Shown here piece by piece: positions 1,090-35,091 of a DNA stretch of 35,173 nt. This DNA comes from Pararcticibacter amylolyticus (lineage in GTDB: Bacteria; Bacteroidota; Bacteroidia; Sphingobacteriales; Sphingobacteriaceae), in contig NZ_QEAS01000024.1 of assembly GCF_003130405.1 (NCBI RefSeq), positions 1,632 to 36,804 of the forward strand, in the 5' to 3' direction. The notes under the pieces are model-generated. The model was not told the origin of the DNA, searched no databases, and worked only from the letters and a program-made list of their open reading frames with translations. Positions within the stretch are counted from its first letter, which is position 1. Every line of letters begins with the position of its first letter. Position numbers and translations under genes: made by a program.

Positions 1090-2343
1090 ATGTCTAGCTT
1101 TATGCTCAAAGCCTCGGCCTTATATATGGTCATTGTAATTGCGCTGGTGATAGCGATTTTTTCATCGTCTTTGATCGCCACTGCTTATTATTACAGGCTT
1201 GAGTATCAAAAGAACATTCGTTTAGGGAAACTCGAAACCAACCTTCATTCCGGGATCTCCATGGTACTTTCAGCAAGTTATCCTGCGAATCAGAATGGTT
1301 TGGAACAAAGAGTTGATCTTTTTGGAGAGCAAAATGACAGCTTGTTGCTCAGGAAGGAAAAATGGGGGATCTTTGAAGTAGGGACTGTCCGTTCGTTCGT
1401 ACTGGCTGATACTCTCAAGAAAGCGTTCTTTGTGGCAGAGGAATGCACGAAGGATCAGACGGCGCTTTATCTCAGTGATGAGGACCGGCCCCTCTCGGTA
1501 AGCGGAAGTACTCAGATCACAGGAGATGCGGAGCTTCCTAAAGCTGGAATTAAAGAGGCCTATGTAGATGGGAAACCTTACGCGGGAAAAAAGCTGGTGG
1601 ACGGCAAGATCACTGATAGTTCAAGAGAGCTTCCCAAGCTGAATCAATCAGTGCTGGATGATCTGGAAAAGTACTTCGCCGATAGCCTGGCAGAACAGGA
1701 AGAGATTCGAGACACCCTGATTAATTCTTTTTTCAGCGAAGCACGCATCATTAGGATCCCTAAATCACAGCCATTGATCAGTAATCGTTTTATAAAGGGC
1801 AAGATCGTGCTTCTATGTGATACGGTGTTAACTATAGGTGAGAACACAGAACTGAGAGATGTAATGGTGTTTGCTCCGGCAATTGTCGTGAAGGAGGGCT
1901 TTAAAGGCAGCTGTCAGCTCTATGCCAGGGACTCTGTTGTTGCTGCAGCCAAAACGGTATTTGAATATCCTTCGGCTATAGGGGTCTTAAGAAAGAGCGA
2001 CAACGGCCAGCCGCGGATTGAACTGGGCAGTGAATGCCGCTTTTCCGGGGTCCTCTTTAGCTGGGAGAGGAAACGTTCGGAGCTGCAGACCATCATCAGC
2101 CTGGGGAAGGATGCATTAGTGAAAGGGGAGGTGTTTGCTACAGGCTTTGTGAAGATGGCGAAGCCATTAACGATCGATGGGCGCGTGGCATGCAACCGTT
2201 TTATCATTCAAACCCCCTCGACGCTCTATGAAAACTATTTGATTGATATCACGATCAACCGGAAACGAAGGAGCAAGTATTATCTTAGTTCTTTTTTATT
2301 TGACAGAAAATCTCCTAAACAGATCCTGCAATGGCTGAACTGA
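1090..2343 (+). CDS. Membrane-anchored GspK/PilX-like protein of pseudopilus operon
   Basis: This 417-residue protein has a single N-terminal membrane segment (about residues 10-33) followed by a large extracytoplasmic domain. The N-terminal helix resembles those of minor pilin-like proteins (PilX/GspK type) but lacks the Phe/Glu5 prepilin signature, so it may not be processed by a prepilin peptidase. The middle and end hold many short strands with regularly spaced Gly and Val (about 130-180 and 225-370), which suggests a beta-helix or bactofilin-like fold; that is an inference. It is the first gene of an operon: the next ATG (2331) overlaps its end by 13 bases. The likely role is as a scaffold or tip component of a type II secretion or type IV pilus-like assembly. 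Confidence 0.6.
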   Translation: MSSFMLKASALYMVIVIALVIAIFSSSLIATAYYYRLEYQKNIRLGKLETNLHSGISMVLSASYPANQNGLEQRVDLFGEQNDSLLLRKEKWGIFEVGTVRSFVLADTLKKAFFVAEECTKDQTALYLSDEDRPLSVSGSTQITGDAELPKAGIKEAYVDGKPYAGKKLVDGKITDSSRELPKLNQSVLDDLEKYFADSLAEQEEIRDTLINSFFSEARIIRIPKSQPLISNRFIKGKIVLLCDTVLTIGENTELRDVMVFAPAIVVKEGFKGSCQLYARDSVVAAAKTVFEYPSAIGVLRKSDNGQPRIELGSECRFSGVLFSWERKRSELQTIISLGKDALVKGEVFATGFVKMAKPLTIDGRVACNRFIIQTPSTLYENYLIDITINRKRRSKYYLSSFLFDRKSPKQILQWLN

Positions 2344-2693
2344 CAAAAAAGATAGAAGCCTCCACACTAGTTGAGGTGCTGATCGCGATGGTGATCATTG
2401 TCGCAGTGTTTGGCGTTGCTATTGGCATCTATACCAATGTGACGCAGTCTGGTTATTCTGTCAGTACCACGCAGTCGCAGCAACAGATGAGAAAGATTGC
2501 GGACGAAAGTATTCTTAATCACGACTGGGAGGACCAGGAACTGATGGAGGACAGCATTATTTACCGGAAAACCGTGAGTGCCTGGCCGGGCTATCAGGAC
2601 CTGGTACTGATAGAGGTTCAGGCTTTACAGAATGAGAAGGTGCTGGGCAAGTTGCGGCAAGTGGCTAGAAAGGAGGAAAAGGCGGGTGAGTAA
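2331..2693 (+). CDS. Prepilin-type (pseudopilin) protein, GspI-like
   Basis: This 120-residue protein has a class III prepilin signal: a short basic leader (MAELTKKIEA) followed by STLVEVLIAM and a hydrophobic helix to about residue 32. Cleavage after Ala10 would place Glu at mature position 5, as in all type II/IV pseudopilins. The residue at -1 is Ala instead of the usual Gly. The short mature domain fits a GspI-like minor pseudopilin. The start overlaps the preceding gene by 13 bases and its end overlaps the next pseudopilin by 8, so the three are translationally coupled. A prepilin peptidase must be encoded outside this window. Confidence 0.8.
   Translation: MAELTKKIEASTLVEVLIAMVIIVAVFGVAIGIYTNVTQSGYSVSTTQSQQQMRKIADESILNHDWEDQELMEDSIIYRKTVSAWPGYQDLVLIEVQALQNEKVLGKLRQVARKEEKAGE
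2671..2676 (+). promoter_or_regulatory. Shine-Dalgarno site fixing the GTG start at 2686
   Basis: AGGAGG lies nine bases before the GTG at 2686. Such a strong site is unusual in this window. It selects the GTG over the in-frame ATG at 2632, which would add 18 implausible residues in front of the prepilin leader. Confidence 0.7.
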
Positions 2694-3159
2694 GGGAAGG
2701 CTTCAGGCGTTTACCATCCTGGAAGTGACGATTGCTATGCTGCTGGCTGCGATTGTTATCGGGATTTCTTATACAGCTTATACGATGATGAGCCGCTCTT
2801 ACCAGCAGTATGATGATAGAAATGAAAAGGTTGCTGAGTTTGTGCTGCTGAATAAATTGCTCAGGAGAGATATCTCGAATGCGGAGAAAATTGTAAGGTC
2901 GCCCGAAGGGATTAATCTGGAGGGCCCTGAAGGAAGTATCATCTATAGCTTCAGTGATGAGTACATTACCAGGAACCAGTATTCCGTTAAGATCGATACC
3001 TTTAAGGTTTCGAACAGCGACCTGATAACCTCATTTGAAGAAAAGGAAGTAACAGAAGAAGGGATGATTGACAGGATTAGCTTTACTGGTGTGCTGCAGG
3101 AAAGGAAAATACCTCTTGTATATGTGAAAACATATAGTGCAGAAGAGAAGTTTGAGTAA
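2686..3159 (+). CDS. Prepilin-type (pseudopilin) protein, GspJ/PulJ-like
   Basis: Read from the GTG at 2686 this is a 157-residue protein with leader VSKGRLQA followed by FTILEVTIAMLLAA, a classic prepilin N-terminus with Phe at +1 and Glu at +5. As in its neighbour, the residue before the cleavage site is Ala. The mature domain is about 150 residues and polar, the size of GspJ or GspH minor pseudopilins. The GTG start is preceded by AGGAGG and overlaps the upstream pseudopilin by 8 bases. The upstream in-frame ATG at 2632 would give a prepilin leader of an unusual length, so it was not used. Confidence 0.8.
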   Translation: MSKGRLQAFTILEVTIAMLLAAIVIGISYTAYTMMSRSYQQYDDRNEKVAEFVLLNKLLRRDISNAEKIVRSPEGINLEGPEGSIIYSFSDEYITRNQYSVKIDTFKVSNSDLITSFEEKEVTEEGMIDRISFTGVLQERKIPLVYVKTYSAEEKFE

Positions 3160-3278
3160 TGAATTGTACTGTATTCGTTTTGATGCGCTTATTTTCTCTA
3201 TCTTGCACCTGATAATAGTGATGGACATATAATGAATACCACTAAGCTTTATATCGCAGCCTTTTAAAAAAGAACTCC

Positions 3279-4433
3279 GTGCCACAGATCGATCTCTCGC
3301 AATACAAAACAAAAGTTCCTCCAAAGAAAAAGAGCTCCGGAAGGAAGGACAACAGTTTTAACTGGGGAGAGTTGCTGAATAAAGATATTTCATTTGGCAA
3401 GCCAAAAGTAAACGATAAGCGTAAAGAGGCTTTTTATGTCGAACTGAGTACCTTACTGCTTTCGGGCATAGACCTGAAGACTGCTCTTGATCTCATTCTG
3501 GTAGACCAGGACAGAGCAAAGGACAGGATCCTGTTTGAGGATATAAAGGATAAGGTGCTTCATGGAAGTTCACTTTCGGATGCTTTGAAGAGCACCGGGA
3601 TGTTTACGGATTACGAATATTACAGTGTGAAGATCGGTGAAGAGACCGGTCGGATTGGCGAAGTGCTGACTGACCTGGCCAAATACTATAAGAACCGGAT
3701 CTCCCAGAAAAGAAAGATCATCAGTGCTGTCACATATCCCATCATTGTGCTGATGACGTCCCTTGGAGCGGTGTTTTTTATGCTGAAGTTCGTGGTGCCG
3801 ATGTTTGCCGATGTGTTTCAGCGATTTGGAGGTCATCTTCCCTGGGTGACCTCGGTGATCATCCGCTTTTCTGCTTTTACTGATAAATACTTTATGGTCT
3901 TTCTGCTGCTCATTATCGGGCTGGCTGTTTTTATATTTCTTAGTAAGGAAAAGCTATGGTTCCGCAAGGCTGTTTCTACCGCGATTCTCAGGATTCCTCT
4001 TGCCGGGGATATCGTCAGGAAAGTGTACCTGGCACGTTTTGCCAATACCATGCGGCTGCTGGTGAGTACAGACACCCCCTTATTGCGGTCCATCGCCCTG
4101 GTAAGACAGATGATCGGTTTTTATCCCCTGGAAACAACATTGGGGGAAGTGGAGAAATCTATTCTGAAGGGAGAGTCCCTTCATCAGAGCCTGTCACGGT
4201 TCAGCTTTTATCCTCCCAAGCTGGTGCAGCTGATCAAAGTAGGGGAGGAAGTCAATCGGCTGGATTATTTCTTTGGTAAGATTTCTGATCAGTATACTGA
4301 AGAAGTTGAATACAAGACCGGTACGATCAGCAGCTTGCTGGAACCGCTGATCATTATATTCCTGGGCCTGGTTGTCGGCCTCATTCTGATCGCCATGTAC
4401 CTGCCGATGTTCCAGATGAGTAATAGTTTTTAG
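3279..4433 (+). CDS. Type II secretion system F family inner-membrane protein
   Basis: This 384-residue GspF/PilC-type platform protein has a basic, Pro/Lys-rich N-terminus (about 1-45) and then two T2SF domains (about 50-175 and 250-375). Membrane segments lie near 149-175, 203-220 and 353-375. Family features visible are the LSTLLLSGIDL stretch, KIGEETGRIGEVL in the first domain and the matching LIKVGEEVNRLD in the second. The family couples the assembly ATPase to pseudopilin insertion. The only plausible start is a GTG at 3279, since the next in-frame ATG is about 100 codons in. It lies 119 bases after the pseudopilins and probably belongs to the same transcription unit. Its partner GspE ATPase is not in this window. 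Confidence 0.9.
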   Translation: MPQIDLSQYKTKVPPKKKSSGRKDNSFNWGELLNKDISFGKPKVNDKRKEAFYVELSTLLLSGIDLKTALDLILVDQDRAKDRILFEDIKDKVLHGSSLSDALKSTGMFTDYEYYSVKIGEETGRIGEVLTDLAKYYKNRISQKRKIISAVTYPIIVLMTSLGAVFFMLKFVVPMFADVFQRFGGHLPWVTSVIIRFSAFTDKYFMVFLLLIIGLAVFIFLSKEKLWFRKAVSTAILRIPLAGDIVRKVYLARFANTMRLLVSTDTPLLRSIALVRQMIGFYPLETTLGEVEKSILKGESLHQSLSRFSFYPPKLVQLIKVGEEVNRLDYFFGKISDQYTEEVEYKTGTISSLLEPLIIIFLGLVVGLILIAMYLPMFQMSNSF

Positions 4434-17501: not shown

Positions 17502-17528
17502 GACCCGGATATTCCGGGTCTTTTTTTT
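17502..17528 (+). terminator. Rho-independent terminator of the ArsR-OYE operon
   Basis: GACCCGGA, loop TAT, TCCGGGTC, followed by eight T: an 8-bp perfect GC-rich stem 30 bases after the OYE stop codon. Confidence 0.9.
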
Positions 17529-17638: not shown

Positions 17639-18625
17639 ATGAAAATTACTGCATTCGAGACAAGAGACGATGAAAAAAGGGCGTTTAAAAAGTTAGCCGA
17701 CAGCCTGAATATTGAAATTGTCTTAATCAATAAACCGCTAAGCCAGCATACAATAGAATTAGCAGCTGGAAGTCAGGGCGTAACCGTGCTTGGGCATAGC
17801 AAAGTGGATGAAGGAATCCTTTCTAAACTAAAAGAGCTTGATATTCATTACTTGTCAACCCGTACAATCGGGTATAATCACATTGATCTTGAAGCAGCAA
17901 AGAAGCTGAATATCAGGATCAGCAACGCCTGTTATGAACCTCATGGAGTCGCAGATTATACCGTTATGTTAATCCTGATGTCTTTACGTAAATACAAACA
18001 GGCACTGTTCAGGGCGAACGTGAATGACTATTCATTAAAGGGATTACAGGGCCGTGAAATGAGGGATATGACAGTGGGGATTATCGGAACCGGGAAGATC
18101 GGCGCGAAAGTGATCGATAACCTCTCGGGTTTTGGCTGCCGGATCCTGGCGTATGATACTTACCGGAACGGGAATATACTGCAAAAGGCAGAATATGTAA
18201 GCCTGGATGAACTTTATCAACAGTCAGATATTATCAGCCTGCATGTACCGCTTCTTGATAGTACATATCAAATGATCAGCCAGGACAGCATTGCTAAAAT
18301 GAAAAACGGGGTGATCCTTGTGAATTGTGCAAGAGGAGAACTGATGAACATAGCAGATCTGATCTATGCTATTGAACATGAAAAGATAGGGGCACTGGCC
18401 CTGGATGTTTTTGAAAAGGAGGAGGGAATCTATCACTTTGACAGAAGGACCGATATCATCAAAAACAGGGATATGGCCTACATCAGACAATTCCCTAATG
18501 TAATTATGACCCAGCATATTGCATTTTATACCGACAGGGCAGTAGAAGAAATGGTGGTATGCGGTGTCCAAAGCCTGCATTCTTTTATCAAAGGTGAAAA
18601 AGCCAGTACTGAGCTTCTTTATTAG
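17639..18625 (+). CDS. VanH-like D-lactate dehydrogenase (D-2-hydroxyacid dehydrogenase)
   Basis: This 328-residue NAD-dependent dehydrogenase carries the family catalytic set: Arg232 (NCARGE), Glu261 (FEKEE) and His293 (TQHIAFYT). The spacing of 29 and 61 residues is the same as in Lactobacillus D-LDH (Arg235, Glu264, His296). The Rossmann motif is VGIIGTGKIG. Several stretches look closest to VanH/D-LDH: STRTIGYNHIDLEAA, GVADYTVMLILMSLR, FGCRILAYD and SDIISLHVPL. It would interconvert pyruvate and D-lactate. The usual Pro before the catalytic His is Gln here. No D-Ala-D-Lac ligase or VanX gene is adjacent, so a fermentative or cell-wall role cannot be decided from context. Confidence 0.9.
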   Translation: MKITAFETRDDEKRAFKKLADSLNIEIVLINKPLSQHTIELAAGSQGVTVLGHSKVDEGILSKLKELDIHYLSTRTIGYNHIDLEAAKKLNIRISNACYEPHGVADYTVMLILMSLRKYKQALFRANVNDYSLKGLQGREMRDMTVGIIGTGKIGAKVIDNLSGFGCRILAYDTYRNGNILQKAEYVSLDELYQQSDIISLHVPLLDSTYQMISQDSIAKMKNGVILVNCARGELMNIADLIYAIEHEKIGALALDVFEKEEGIYHFDRRTDIIKNRDMAYIRQFPNVIMTQHIAFYTDRAVEEMVVCGVQSLHSFIKGEKASTELLY

Positions 18626-18788
18626 AATATCTTTGATAACGACTCTTTTGTCTTCAATTCCTGTTGATAAAATCAAAATTGGAAGGCGTGATTTATCTCA
18701 CATTTTGATAATATCGTAAAATGCAATCGTTTGTCATGAATTATTTGTAATAATATCTTAAATATTTATCAATATATAAATATTTGTT

Positions 18789-18796
18789 TACTTTTG
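18789..18796 (+). promoter_or_regulatory. Bacteroidota -7 element before the PepSY-like gene
   Basis: TACTTTTG matches TAnnTTTG and lies 14 bases before the ATG at 18811. The AT-rich region 18626-18788 has no other feature; the -33 region has TTTA, not TTTG. Confidence 0.5.
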
Positions 18797-18810
18797 TTGT
18801 GAAAATAACA

Positions 18811-19320
18811 ATGAAACAAATGAAAACGATTTTATATTTCGCATTTTTAGTTCTCGCTTTATCATTTAAAGGTTACGCGGACGAAAAGAACAAAGGAGAA
18901 AAGAAAGGAGCTGAGGTATCCTATTTCGCTGAAAATAATTTTCTTGCTAAATACCAGGGAGCGGAAAATGTAAAGTGGACTGTAACCAATCAATTCCAGA
19001 AAGCAACCTTCACATTAAAAGGTGTAAAGCTTGCTGCTTTCTTCGATATGAACGGTGAATATATCGCTACTACACAGTTTGTGGATGCAAAAAAATTACC
19101 TGCGGTAGGAAAGAACAGATTAGAGAAGCTTTATAAAGGTTATGAGATCGAAGAAGTTGTCAGATATGACCTGGATTCTCAGGAAGATTCACGTCTGGAA
19201 ATGCTGACAGGCAAGAGAGCTTATAATACTATCTATTTTGCAAGCCTTAAAAACAACGATGAGAAGGTAGTTTTGAAAATTACCCCTGACGGAGATGTAT
19301 CTTATCTTAAAAATCTATAA
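18811..19320 (+). CDS. Secreted PepSY-like protein
   Basis: This 169-residue protein has a signal peptide (MKQMKTILYFAFLVLALSFKGYA) and a mature domain that resembles the PepSY-like/BLIP-like periplasmic proteins common in Bacteroidota, with the pattern NVKW...ATF...AFFDMNGEYIATT. These are small alpha/beta proteins of unknown role, often induced by stress; no enzyme motif is seen. The frame opens at an upstream ATG (18784), but that would place the promoter element inside the gene, so 18811 is used; 18820 is also possible. A terminator follows at 19342-19377. Confidence 0.75.
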   Translation: MKQMKTILYFAFLVLALSFKGYADEKNKGEKKGAEVSYFAENNFLAKYQGAENVKWTVTNQFQKATFTLKGVKLAAFFDMNGEYIATTQFVDAKKLPAVGKNRLEKLYKGYEIEEVVRYDLDSQEDSRLEMLTGKRAYNTIYFASLKNNDEKVVLKITPDGDVSYLKNL

Positions 19321-22503: not shown

Positions 22504-23328
22504 ATGAAAAGATTTGGTTTTATTCTGCTCGTTTTATTCTGGATTCAGGGGTCGGCCCAAACCGATACATATGAACTGAAGGAGAATGTTCATTATTATC
22601 CTGATTCCGACAATAAGAAAGACTCTTATATAAACGAGCGCTGTTTGCTTGATGTTTATTATCCAAAGAATAAAAAGGGGTTTGCTACGATCGTATGGTT
22701 TCATGGAGGCGGCATTACGGGGGGAAATAAATCGATCCCTGAAGCACTGAAAAATAAAGGGTACGCGGTTATTGCCGTAGGGTACCGGCTTTCTCCAAAG
22801 GTTTCTGCTCCGGCTTATATCCGGGATGCGGCTGCGGCGGTGGCGTGGGGCTTTAAGCATATTAGTGAATTTGGCGGCAACGCCGACCGGATTTTTCTTT
22901 CGGGGCATTCAGCCGGTGGCTATCTGACGATGATGATCACGCTTGATAAGGAATACCTACAGGTATACGGGATCGATGCAAACAGGATAGCCGGCCTGAT
23001 ACCGTTCAGCGGCCAGGCTATTACGCATTTTACCGTCCGTAATGAACAGGGTATAAAGGAAACACAGCCGACAATCGATCAATATGCTCCATTATATCAT
23101 GTAAGGGCTGACGCACCGCCAATGCTCCTGATAACAGGTGACCGGGAAATGGAGCTTCTGGGACGGTATGAGGAAAACGCTTATCTGTGCAGGATGATGA
23201 AGCTGGCGGGACATAAACAAACGAAGTTGTATGAACTGGACGGGTTTGACCATGGAGGGATGGCGGAACCAGCGTTTCCGCTGCTTTTGAAAGAAGTGGC
23301 AGCGATATTGAAAAGTGGTGGCAAATGA
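22504..23328 (+). CDS. Secreted alpha/beta hydrolase (carboxylesterase type)
   Basis: This 274-residue hydrolase has a signal peptide (about residues 1-18, ending QGSAQ). Oxyanion-hole motif HGGG is at 67-70, nucleophile Ser136 in GHSAGG, then Asp213 (TGDRE) and His250 (FDHGGM), a complete triad of the hormone-sensitive-lipase/carboxylesterase branch. The sequence SPKVSAPAYIRDAAAAVAWGF is typical of BD-FAE-type esterases that deacylate small ester substrates. The substrate is not predictable. It lies alone between the divergent GH25 gene and the MFS transporter. Confidence 0.88.
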   Translation: MKRFGFILLVLFWIQGSAQTDTYELKENVHYYPDSDNKKDSYINERCLLDVYYPKNKKGFATIVWFHGGGITGGNKSIPEALKNKGYAVIAVGYRLSPKVSAPAYIRDAAAAVAWGFKHISEFGGNADRIFLSGHSAGGYLTMMITLDKEYLQVYGIDANRIAGLIPFSGQAITHFTVRNEQGIKETQPTIDQYAPLYHVRADAPPMLLITGDREMELLGRYEENAYLCRMMKLAGHKQTKLYELDGFDHGGMAEPAFPLLLKEVAAILKSGGK

Positions 23329-29919: not shown

Positions 29920-29927
29920 TATTTTTG
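29920..29927 (+). promoter_or_regulatory. Bacteroidota -7 element for the alcohol dehydrogenase gene
   Basis: TATTTTTG matches TAnnTTTG, 24 bases before the ATG at 29952. Upstream is a T-rich TTTTTAG near 29898 that could stand in for the -33 element. Confidence 0.5.
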
Positions 29928-29951
29928 ACGGAAAATAGAACCACATTTTTT

Positions 29952-31109
29952 ATGGAACCAGTAAGAAGAATTTATTTCCCTCCTGTAAACCTAGTTGGAC
30001 CGGGAGCGATACAGGAAGCAGGTGCAGAAGTTGAAAAGCTAAATCTTAAGAAACTTCTGGTCGTAACGGACAAAGTGTTGCGGTCGGTAGGTGTTGTAGC
30101 CAAGGTTACTGATGTTCTGGATAAAGCCTCGATAGATTATGTAATTTTCGATGATGTAAAACCTAATCCAACGACGAAGAACGTTTATGACGGTCTTGAG
30201 CTTTTTAAAGCTGAAGGATGCGACGGCTTGCTCTCTATCGGCGGCGGTTCACCTCAGGATGCTGCAAAAGCAATAGGTATCCTCTTTACAAATGGCGGCG
30301 AAATGCCTCAGTACGAAGGTGTTTGTAAGTCGAAGAATAAGTCGGTGCCGATTGTTGCGGTAAATACCACTGCCGGGACAGCTTCAGAAGTGACGATCAA
30401 TTATGTGATTACCGATGAGGTTCGCAAAATTAAAATGGTGATCGTAGATCCTAACTCGCTGGCTTCGGTTGCGATAAACGACCCCGAACTCATGCTCAAT
30501 AAACCGGCAGGGCTCACTGCGGCTACCGGAATGGATGCCTTGACACACGCGATTGAGGCTTATATTACGAAAGGTGCTTTTCGCCTTTCAGACACGCTGG
30601 CTCTTGAAGCAATCCGCCTGATAGGAGAAAGCCTTGAAGATGCGGTAAAAGATGGAAAGAACCTGGAAGCACGCTCGAAAATGGCCTGGGCTTCTTATAT
30701 CGCCGGCCTGTCATTCTCTAACTGCGGACTGGGTATTGTGCATTCAATGGCACACCAGCTGGGTTCTGAATATGATCTCCCTCATGGTGTTGCAAATGCG
30801 TTATTGCTGCCTTATGTTGAAGAGTTCAACTCTGAAGTGTGCGCTGAAAAATTTAAGGATATTGCAGCAGCTTTGGGGGTTGATGTTGAAGATCTTTCTG
30901 TTGAAGAAGCTCGTCAGGCTGCTATTAAAGCCTTGAAGGATATGGCGGTTAAATTGAACATTCCAAAATTGAATGAGACTGCCTTCAATCCGGCAGACCT
31001 GGACAAGCTGGCTGCCCAGGCAATGGCGGATGCCTGCACCGGAGGAAATCCAAGAGAGGTGACTGCTGAAGATATTAAAGCGATCTTCATGAAAGCATAC
31101 CAGGGTTAA
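29952..31109 (+). CDS. Iron-containing alcohol dehydrogenase
   Basis: This 385-residue enzyme has the Fe-ADH fold: nucleotide-binding GGGSPQDAAKAIG (97-109), and metal ligands Asp195, His199, His264 and His278 in MDALTHAIEAY, VHSMAHQLG and PHG. These positions are within one residue of those of E. coli FucO (lactaldehyde reductase). All are present, so it should be active on a primary alcohol/aldehyde pair with NAD(H) or NADP(H). The start MEPVRRIYFPP is used; a TTG nine codons earlier would overlap the promoter. A terminator follows. Confidence 0.95.
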   Translation: MEPVRRIYFPPVNLVGPGAIQEAGAEVEKLNLKKLLVVTDKVLRSVGVVAKVTDVLDKASIDYVIFDDVKPNPTTKNVYDGLELFKAEGCDGLLSIGGGSPQDAAKAIGILFTNGGEMPQYEGVCKSKNKSVPIVAVNTTAGTASEVTINYVITDEVRKIKMVIVDPNSLASVAINDPELMLNKPAGLTAATGMDALTHAIEAYITKGAFRLSDTLALEAIRLIGESLEDAVKDGKNLEARSKMAWASYIAGLSFSNCGLGIVHSMAHQLGSEYDLPHGVANALLLPYVEEFNSEVCAEKFKDIAAALGVDVEDLSVEEARQAAIKALKDMAVKLNIPKLNETAFNPADLDKLAAQAMADACTGGNPREVTAEDIKAIFMKAYQG

Positions 31110-33945: not shown

Positions 33946-34080
33946 CAGCCGTTCTTTTCCGAACAGCAGGGTTGTGAATTGAAAGTCATTTCTCCGGGAG
34001 ATGCTGGTGCCTGAATGTCATTTGATTTACCTTCGTATAAAGTGAGACCGGCGTACAACATCAATCCTGCCGGAAGAATA

Positions 34081-35091
34081 ATGACACGAAAAACACTATC
34101 TGATATTACTATCTCGGTTCTTGATCTGGCCGCTATCAGCGAGGGCCAGACGGCTGCGGATTCCTTTCGTAACAGCCTTGACCTGGCTTTACTGGCCGAA
34201 AAATTAGGATACGAACGTTACTGGTTTGCCGAACATCATAATATGATCAATGTGGCTAGCTCAGCTACAGCCGTGCTGATTGGATATATAGCCGGGAACA
34301 CAAATACTATAAGGGTCGGGTCAGGGGGAATAATGCTTCCTAACCATGCGCCATTGATCGTCGCCGAGCAATTTGGTACACTTGAATCGCTGTATCCGGG
34401 AAGGATAGACCTTGGGCTCGGAAGAGCGCCGGGAACTGATCAGGCTACCGCACTCGCGATCAGGGGAGAGAACTTCCATTCACATCATCATTTTCCGGCT
34501 GACGTGGAAAAGCTTCAGCAATTTTTTTCATCGGATAACAGCGATGCCAAAGTCAGAGCTAATCCGGGAGAGGGCCTTAACATACCTATATGGATCCTTG
34601 GATCGAGCACAGACAGTGCTTACCTTGCGGCATCAAAAGGTTTACCGTATGCTTTTGCCAGCCATTTCGCCCCTGCACAGTTTCTGACAGCTATTGATTT
34701 GTACAGGAAGAACTTCCGTCCATCTGAAAACCTGAAGGAGCCTTATGTGCTGGCTTGTGTAAATGCCATTGTTGCAGATACGGATGAAGAAGCAGAATAC
34801 CTTTCGACATCATTACTGCAATTTATTGCCGGAGTGGTGTCGGGGAGGAGAAGTCTGCTTCAGCCGCCGGTAACGAATATGGATGAGGTTTGGAGTGTAT
34901 ATGAGGAACAGGCTGTAAAACAAATGCTCGGATATGCCTTTATTGGCGGTCCTTCGAAGCTGAAGACAGAATTACAGGATTTTGTGATGAAAACCGGGGT
35001 TGATGAGATTATGATGGCATCGCATATATTTGATCATCAGGCAAAACTACACTCATTTAAGCTGTTTTCCGAAGTTTTTAAGCAGGGTTAA
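34081..35091 (+). CDS. Luciferase-like flavin-dependent oxidoreductase (MsnO8-like)
   Basis: This 336-residue LLM-class enzyme starts [17 protein letters not shown] and shows the family features [45 protein letters not shown] split over two strands, and [12 protein letters not shown]. These form the TIM-barrel core that binds reduced FMN. Such enzymes are annotated as monooxygenases of the bacterial luciferase superfamily; the substrate is unknown and no flavin reductase is adjacent. An upstream in-frame ATG at 34015 adds 22 residues without family resemblance and was not used. A weak AAAGC/GCTTT hairpin with a T-run overlaps the stop region. Confidence 0.9.

Follow-up and report, generated by a model that had tools for sequence, protein, structure and literature searches.

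A stand-alone D-2-hydroxyacid dehydrogenase of Pararcticibacter amylolyticus in a putative sister subfamily of the VanH-containing clade

Introduction

D-2-hydroxyacid dehydrogenases share a chemistry in which NADH, an arginine and a histidine/glutamate pair have set roles, as given in passages of PMC6303947. According to the same passages, the best substrates of VanH are pyruvate and 2-ketobutyrate, and an Asp in the betaB-alphaD loop goes with NADH. Substrate size is related to position 51 in the beta3-alpha3 loop: Phe51 of Escherichia coli LdhA excludes substrates larger than pyruvate, and Leu51 of D-2-hydroxyisocaproate dehydrogenase (HicDH) and Gly54 of VanH permit broader specificity (PMC6303947). 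A survey of vanHAX beyond Actinobacteria lists Terrabacteria classes only in the portion of its text used here, in which the term 'Bacteroid' is absent, and it excluded MAGs as well as any locus without vanH, vanA or vanX (PMC9689679). A remote member of pfam02826, the PbfF racemase, appears in parts of PMC12366243. Among the literature records listed, no title or abstract beginning pointed to the clade described below.

Here we analysed a stretch of 35,173 nucleotides, called the window throughout (assembly GCF_003130405.1, contig NZ_QEAS01000024.1, positions 1,632 to 36,804, forward strand), that carries a VanH-like dehydrogenase gene.

The gene and its product

The reading frame at 17639-18625 on the plus strand is open, begins with ATG and encodes 328 amino acids. 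Both Pfam domains scored above their cut-offs (2-Hacid_dh_C, 162.5 bits; 2-Hacid_dh, 73.6 bits). Arg232 and Glu261 are 29 residues apart and Glu261 and His293 32 apart, identical to the spacing in Lactobacillus bulgaricus D-lactate dehydrogenase (D-LDH), which agrees with the sequence-only reading that the catalytic residues are spaced as in D-LDH. With two 2-Hacid_dh domains, the Arg/Glu/His triad and a D-LDH fold, the protein has the marks of a D-2-hydroxyacid dehydrogenase. The GC content of the gene was 42.0% and that of the window 44.1%, and base composition gives the gene no strong foreign mark. The features of the gene are the following (all on the plus strand).

17639..18625, plus: coding sequence of a 328-residue D-2-hydroxyacid (D-lactate-type) dehydrogenase of the VanH-sister clade (reading frame, profile matches, tree and fold comparison)
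17789..17794, plus: Leu51-Gly52 in the beta3-alpha3 substrate loop, clade signature (Leu51 in 27/28 rows, Gly52 in 28/28; loop role after passages of PMC6303947)
18155..18157, plus: Asp173 at the end of the second Rossmann strand, predicting NADH (alignment; rule from passages of PMC6303947)
18332..18334, plus: catalytic Arg232, kept in 99/99 aligned rows
18419..18421, plus: catalytic Glu261, kept in 99/99 aligned rows
18434..18436, plus: His266, clade signature in a poorly predicted stretch of the model (28/28 clade rows, 1/71 elsewhere)
18512..18517, plus: Gln292-His293, a clade-specific Gln (27/28 clade rows, 0/71 others) ahead of the catalytic His (99/99)

The AlphaFold model, built from 18 sequences, had a mean pLDDT of 85.8 and a pTM of 0.80; it was weak at residues 121-132 and 262-264, and Asn129 and His266 lie in or beside such stretches. 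Foldseek returned L. bulgaricus D-LDH as the top matches. By VIA-align the closest structures were 1dxy (HicDH; Z 37.6, rmsd 2.4, 321 aligned residues), 2yq4_C (Z 36.8) and 1j49 (D-LDH; Z 36.5). This comparison of a predicted model supports the fold and not a substrate.

Among NCBIfam models the VanH models ranked first, led by vanH_gen (327.7 bits, E 6e-98), and the first general D-LDH model came after them at 209 bits. The vanH_gen score fell short of its cut-off of 540, the other VanH models gave 259-279 against cut-offs of 550-750, and none of the 21 models listed for the protein passed its own cut-off. The same six VanH models were matched at E 1e-20 or better by all 18 members of the 18-sequence alignment, of which the window protein alone was compared with the cut-offs. 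The best 60 of 2687 matching records in a plasmid collection were all annotated vanH (39-42% identity). Thus, the likeness to VanH noticed in some stretches of the sequence is borne out by the best curated models, but every VanH cut-off was missed.

Phylogenetic placement

Relatives were collected by scanning one genome per species with short peptide patterns, one of which (MTQHIAFY) includes the Gln ahead of the catalytic His. This gave 17 loci with 51-76% identity, six in Bacteroidota (a Sphingobacteriales MAG, two Mangrovibacterium, Maribellus, Sunxiuqinia and Draconibacterium) and 11 in Bacillota (Lachnospiraceae, Oscillospiraceae and others). A first tree held 93 of the 114 collected rows and was rooted on eight remote paralogues; a careful tree held 55 of the 114, none of them HicDH, and was rooted by our own choice on 13 LdhA rows.

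In the 55-row tree the window protein fell inside a clade of 23 rows (bootstrap 96, SH-aLRT 95), called the query clade here. Its sister was a clade of 14 rows (100/97), and the two joined at 98/93. The sister clade, or VanH side, comprised VanH-A, VanH-B, VanH-M, an actinomycete VanH, the clostridial protein L161 and nine further clostridial proteins. L161 adjoins a van-type ligase, and the van-operon rows of the tree were this protein and the four VanH, no more. The other nine clostridial proteins had no match to the Van ligase or VanX queries within flanks of ~1.5 kb on each side. The Lactobacillus D-LDH, 4xkj and HGDH rows joined outside both clades (97/92), and LdhA was split from the query, VanH-side and lactic acid bacterial D-LDH/HGDH rows at 100/99. 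The 93-row tree gave the same groups, with SH-aLRT values of 95 for the query clade, 98 for the VanH side, 94 for both joined and 98 for LdhA.

At the L161 locus (1438-3575) the VanH-like gene is directly followed by a ligase gene whose product is 53% identical to VanA and has the van-type loop; this locus is probably a van operon.

Approximately unbiased (AU) tests rejected three groups: the window protein joined to the van-operon rows (p 1e-57), the query clade joined to LdhA (p-AU 0.007), and the query clade joined to the van-operon rows to the exclusion of the other VanH-side rows (p 0.004). Two of the three were shaped after the tree had been seen; whether the window protein groups with VanH had been asked beforehand, in the sequence-only reading. 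The protein therefore does not lie deep in the LdhA clade. On these sequence comparisons it is placed in a sister subfamily to the VanH-containing clade, a subfamily without a name that spans Clostridia and their relatives and some Bacteroidota. The suggestion of an environmental relative of VanH holds in the phylogenetic sense, but not for VanH itself, since the cut-offs were missed and the D-Ala-D-Lac machinery was not found.

The Bacteroidota members formed a single group (8 rows, 98/94) among Bacillota rows in the 55-row tree, which suggests one transfer from Clostridia. The gene was thus probably obtained by horizontal transfer from Clostridia, a direction that we infer. Of 395 genomes sampled from Bacteroidota, 33 gave a match at E 1e-60 or better, all except the window's own at 35-41% identity. 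In a clostridial class sample drawn around one carrier, 14 of 391 genomes matched at E 1e-70; six of the 14, the centre included, have query-clade rows in the 93-row tree. Genomes G457 and G459 contain a second query-clade paralogue (L143 and L144) with 50-51% identity to the window protein.

Signature residues of the clade

Signature positions were compared between 28 rows of the clade and 71 D-LDH-type rows from outside it, with 15 of the 114 rows left out (14 remote paralogues and L160, which falls outside the tree groups). Besides His266, the clade is marked by Leu51 (27/28 against 2/71), Gly52 (28/28 against 2/71), Asn129 (28/28 against 6/71), Tyr281 (28/28 against 0/71), Gln284 (27/28 against 3/71) and Gln292. 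Residues 291-293 of the window protein read T-Q-H; the residue ahead of the catalytic His is Pro in 14/14 VanH-side rows and in 4/4 LdhD/4xkj/HGDH rows. The Gln that had been called unusual is real, but it is no quirk of one gene: its presence in 27/28 rows inside the clade and 0/71 outside makes it a clade mark. The loci L045-L061 were found through the short patterns, one of which holds this Gln, and their rows may be biased towards it. Among ten clade rows that came from a whole-protein search, each of the seven signature positions was kept in 9 or 10, the exceptions being L166 at position 51 and L158 at positions 284 and 292.

The Asp of the betaB-alphaD loop that goes with NADH is present in the window protein as Asp173, but in only 15 of the 28 clade rows, so NADH preference would be no clade-wide property. 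We considered whether the clade might differ from VanH in its cofactor but gave up the idea, since VanH-A and VanH-M do not have the Asp, VanH-B and the actinomycete VanH do, and in the query clade both states occur.

The window protein is 39-41% identical to four VanH encoded in vanHAX operons and shares their fold family and catalytic residues. It differs from them in having no van operon around it, in scoring under the VanH cut-offs, in Leu51-Gly52 of the beta3-alpha3 loop where VanH-A has Gly54, and in the Gln ahead of the catalytic His where VanH has Pro. The lactobacillar LdhD (1j49, 2dld) and HGDH (1xdw) share the fold, the triad spacing and Tyr99 with the window protein, and LdhD also shares His-x-Ala-Phe-Tyr-Thr. 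However, LdhD and HGDH join outside the VanH and query group and have Pro ahead of the His, and LdhD has Tyr52 where the window protein has Leu51.

Function of the enzyme

We consider it probable, from the sequence comparisons, that the window protein is a stand-alone NADH-dependent D-2-hydroxyacid dehydrogenase, likely a pyruvate reductase, that it belongs to a VanH-sister subfamily and came from Clostridia, and that it serves as a side enzyme of redox balance or fermentation and is no resistance gene. For this protein we infer the substrate, the reaction direction, the cofactor and the physiological role, as well as the direction of transfer. In the proposed mechanism NADH would bind the Rossmann domain and give the hydride, Arg232 would hold the carboxylate of the 2-oxo acid substrate, and His293, paired with Glu261, would pass the proton. 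The product would be a D-hydroxy acid, with pyruvate to D-lactate as the default and perhaps also somewhat larger 2-oxo acids. Pyruvate is taken as the default because it is, along with 2-ketobutyrate, what VanH works on best, and because the closest relatives of known structure are D-LDH.

The same genome encodes a protein above the cut-offs of both L-lactate dehydrogenase (L-LDH) models, and less well above one malate dehydrogenase model; that it already has an L-LDH counts against this reading. There is also a GlcD/YdiJ-like FAD oxidase, below cut-offs. Together, the L-LDH and the oxidase make it plausible that lactate is made and re-oxidised. At locus L179 (432-2400) of this genome, an L-lactate dehydrogenase gene whose product scores above its NCBIfam cut-offs comes after a SerA-like gene.

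Against pyruvate as the preferred substrate, position 51 resembles that of HicDH (Leu), not Phe51 of E. coli LdhA or the lactobacillar Tyr, and three residues, His266, Tyr281 and Gln292, are peculiar to the clade. The chief alternative to pyruvate, given Leu51 and the changes around His293, is a larger 2-oxo acid. The enzyme would then be a broad or larger 2-oxo-acid reductase of HicDH type, acting on branched-chain or aromatic substrates and no lactate dehydrogenase, a reading that partly overlaps with the preferred one and that we regard as possible but doubtful. Leu51, the substrate-size residue of HicDH, is present in the window protein as in nearly the whole clade, clade-specific residues adjoin the catalytic His, and the best structural Z belongs to 1dxy, 1.1 above that of 1j49 and level with that of 2yq4. 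However, phmmer gave 221 bits for the D-LDH chain 5z21 against 169 bits for 1dxy, Foldseek put L. bulgaricus D-LDH first, and the presumed pocket-narrowing residues Tyr99 and Phe296 are conserved; HicDH itself is absent from the tree rows.

A plain fermentative D-LDH of the LdhA type would have the same fold, triad and likely reaction, and the Asp for NADH is shared with LdhA of E. coli and Fusobacterium nucleatum (5z21). Nevertheless, LdhA forms a separate clade (100/99; p-AU 0.007), has Ser, Gly, Ala or Pro ahead of the His, and carries Phe51 in 53/53 LdhA-group rows (38 of the 53 are in the 93-row tree), which the window protein lacks. Membership in LdhA was rejected on the tree, the AU test and the missing Phe51, and this reading is very unlikely. 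The sequence-only proposal of a plain fermentative D-LDH fails as a label for the LdhA clade but may hold for the function.

Genomic neighborhood

Upstream of the gene lie an ArsR-type regulator, above its NCBIfam cut-off, and an old yellow enzyme (OYE) gene, and this pair matches the OYE operon named in the sequence-only reading. The downstream gene (18784-19320), earlier called PepSY-like, encodes a protein of 178 amino acids that neither Pfam nor NCBIfam models matched at E 0.001, so the label is unconfirmed. The following element was recognised by eye after the OYE gene; the terminator scan did not report it.

17503..17519, plus: hairpin followed by a run of T after the OYE gene

This hairpin and T run suggest separate transcription; with a gap of 167 bases as well, co-transcription of the D-LDH gene with the OYE gene is thought unlikely. 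A sigma-70 consensus fits Bacteroidota poorly, and a promoter scan using it gave 14 promoter-like matches against 8.1 expected. At 29925-31109 the window contains an iron-containing alcohol dehydrogenase near lactaldehyde reductase (503 bits against a cut-off of 523).

No neighbor family was common to both phyla within the flanks compared, and recurrence was seen among close relatives only: in a Prolixibacteraceae trio, a Lachnospiraceae trio and one pair of clostridial loci. One peptidase family was common to L047 and the window, both Bacteroidota. Within the genus, four of six genomes have the D-LDH gene. Two of them (G001 and G005) have a common neighborhood, judged from protein starts, and share with the window only the D-LDH gene and a weak hit of 23%. 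A short contig of G003 (L045) has one more gene in common with the window (34015-35091, 74% identity); a single gene separates it from the D-LDH gene in G003, and in the window the two are 15 kb apart. G002, without the D-LDH gene, contains counterparts of two window genes ~11 kb from each other, the S9 peptidase (82%) and the gene at 22504-23328 (80%); neither the OYE nor the small gene was matched within the 19 kb taken. The differing neighbors across the genus show that the D-LDH gene has changed places, alone or with few neighbors; given the extra common gene in G003, it may not have moved alone.

In a Lachnoclostridium MAG (L049, 1990-8173), larB, larC, an aldo-keto reductase gene, the VanH-like dehydrogenase gene and two CobW-type GTPase genes form a tight run. 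A role as partner of nickel-dependent lactate racemase (Lar) metabolism would fit this locus, where the gene sits 3 bp after that of the aldo-keto reductase, and LarC was found in 4/5 Prolixibacteraceae carriers, a family with no non-carriers in the comparison. However, these neighbors occurred at no other carrier locus within the flanks compared, LarC was found in 0/4 of the window genome and its three carrier congeners, and 9/15 Bacillota carriers had it against 14/29 clostridial non-carriers. It was also found in 0/27 non-carriers of the window's family, and G817, a carrier by the tree, was left out of the count. The racemase link drawn from L049 was thus unsupported by LarC co-occurrence, and we hold it to be highly improbable.

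Cell-wall ligases and VanX

As the sequence-only reading had stated, vanA and vanX are not nearby: searches with VanA, an actinomycete Van ligase, DdlB and two VanX found nothing at E 1e-5 among the window reading frames of at least 80 amino acids. The genome, whose assembly is 97.7% complete, has one clear Ddl, which scores above the cut-offs of D-Ala-D-Ala ligase models (e.g., 327.9 bits where 310 is needed) but below that of the general D-Ala-D-Lac model (159 bits where 550 is needed) and keeps Tyr at the column of DdlB Tyr216. Tyr at that column marks D-Ala-D-Ala ligases. Another six loci matched PF07478 at E 2e-10 or more weakly and were regarded as different ATP-grasp enzymes; four of them (L009, L011, L012 and L014) did not match the Van ligase or DdlB queries, and L010 and L013 gave weak Van ligase matches of 25-27% identity. 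The genome search for D-Ala-D-Lac ligases proposed earlier thus ends with a sole clear Ddl of D-Ala-D-Ala type and none of van type. PF01427, the VanX family, had no hit in this 97.7% complete genome and was found in 3/14 control genomes.

Twenty carrier genomes, the window's included, were also searched: 19 gave 28 Ddl at E 1e-20 or better and G455 gave none, and all 28 had the Tyr. Among the ligases compared, the van-type loop occurred only in the four Van ligases and in the one that adjoins L161. The D-LDH gene is therefore probably not part of glycopeptide resistance and stands alone beside an ordinary-looking cell-wall ligase. That it is a functional VanH supplying D-lactate for D-Ala-D-Lac cell-wall precursors, as its best curated matches and the sister position of its clade might suggest, is scarcely credible and was rejected, given the AU test against direct grouping with VanH, the missed vanH cut-offs, the single D-Ala-D-Ala-type Ddl, the lack of a van ligase and of the VanX family, and the Tyr kept in every Ddl found in 19 of the 20 carrier genomes.

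Significance

The window protein is an additional D-LDH/VanH-type dehydrogenase, which may act on a distinct substrate. In a Gram-negative genome, a strong match to VanH is no proof of glycopeptide resistance, and T-Q-H with Leu-Gly, against T-P-H, gives simple markers that tell the query clade from VanH. With the sister sequences at hand, VanH falls among clostridial enzymes that have no van ligase near them, which bears on the origin of the resistance enzyme. One study argues that the core van genes arose in streptomycetes (PMC11273654); there is no conflict, because the placement among clostridial enzymes concerns an older step.

A bolder proposal, which we put forward tentatively, is that the query clade is a distinct enzyme type in which Leu51, Gly52, Asn129, His266, Tyr281, Gln284 and Gln292 rebuild the pocket near the catalytic His for a 2-oxo acid other than pyruvate, and that VanH was recruited from the same stand-alone clostridial stock. 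If this is true, the query clade and its sister would be a non-resistance reservoir from which a resistance enzyme arose.
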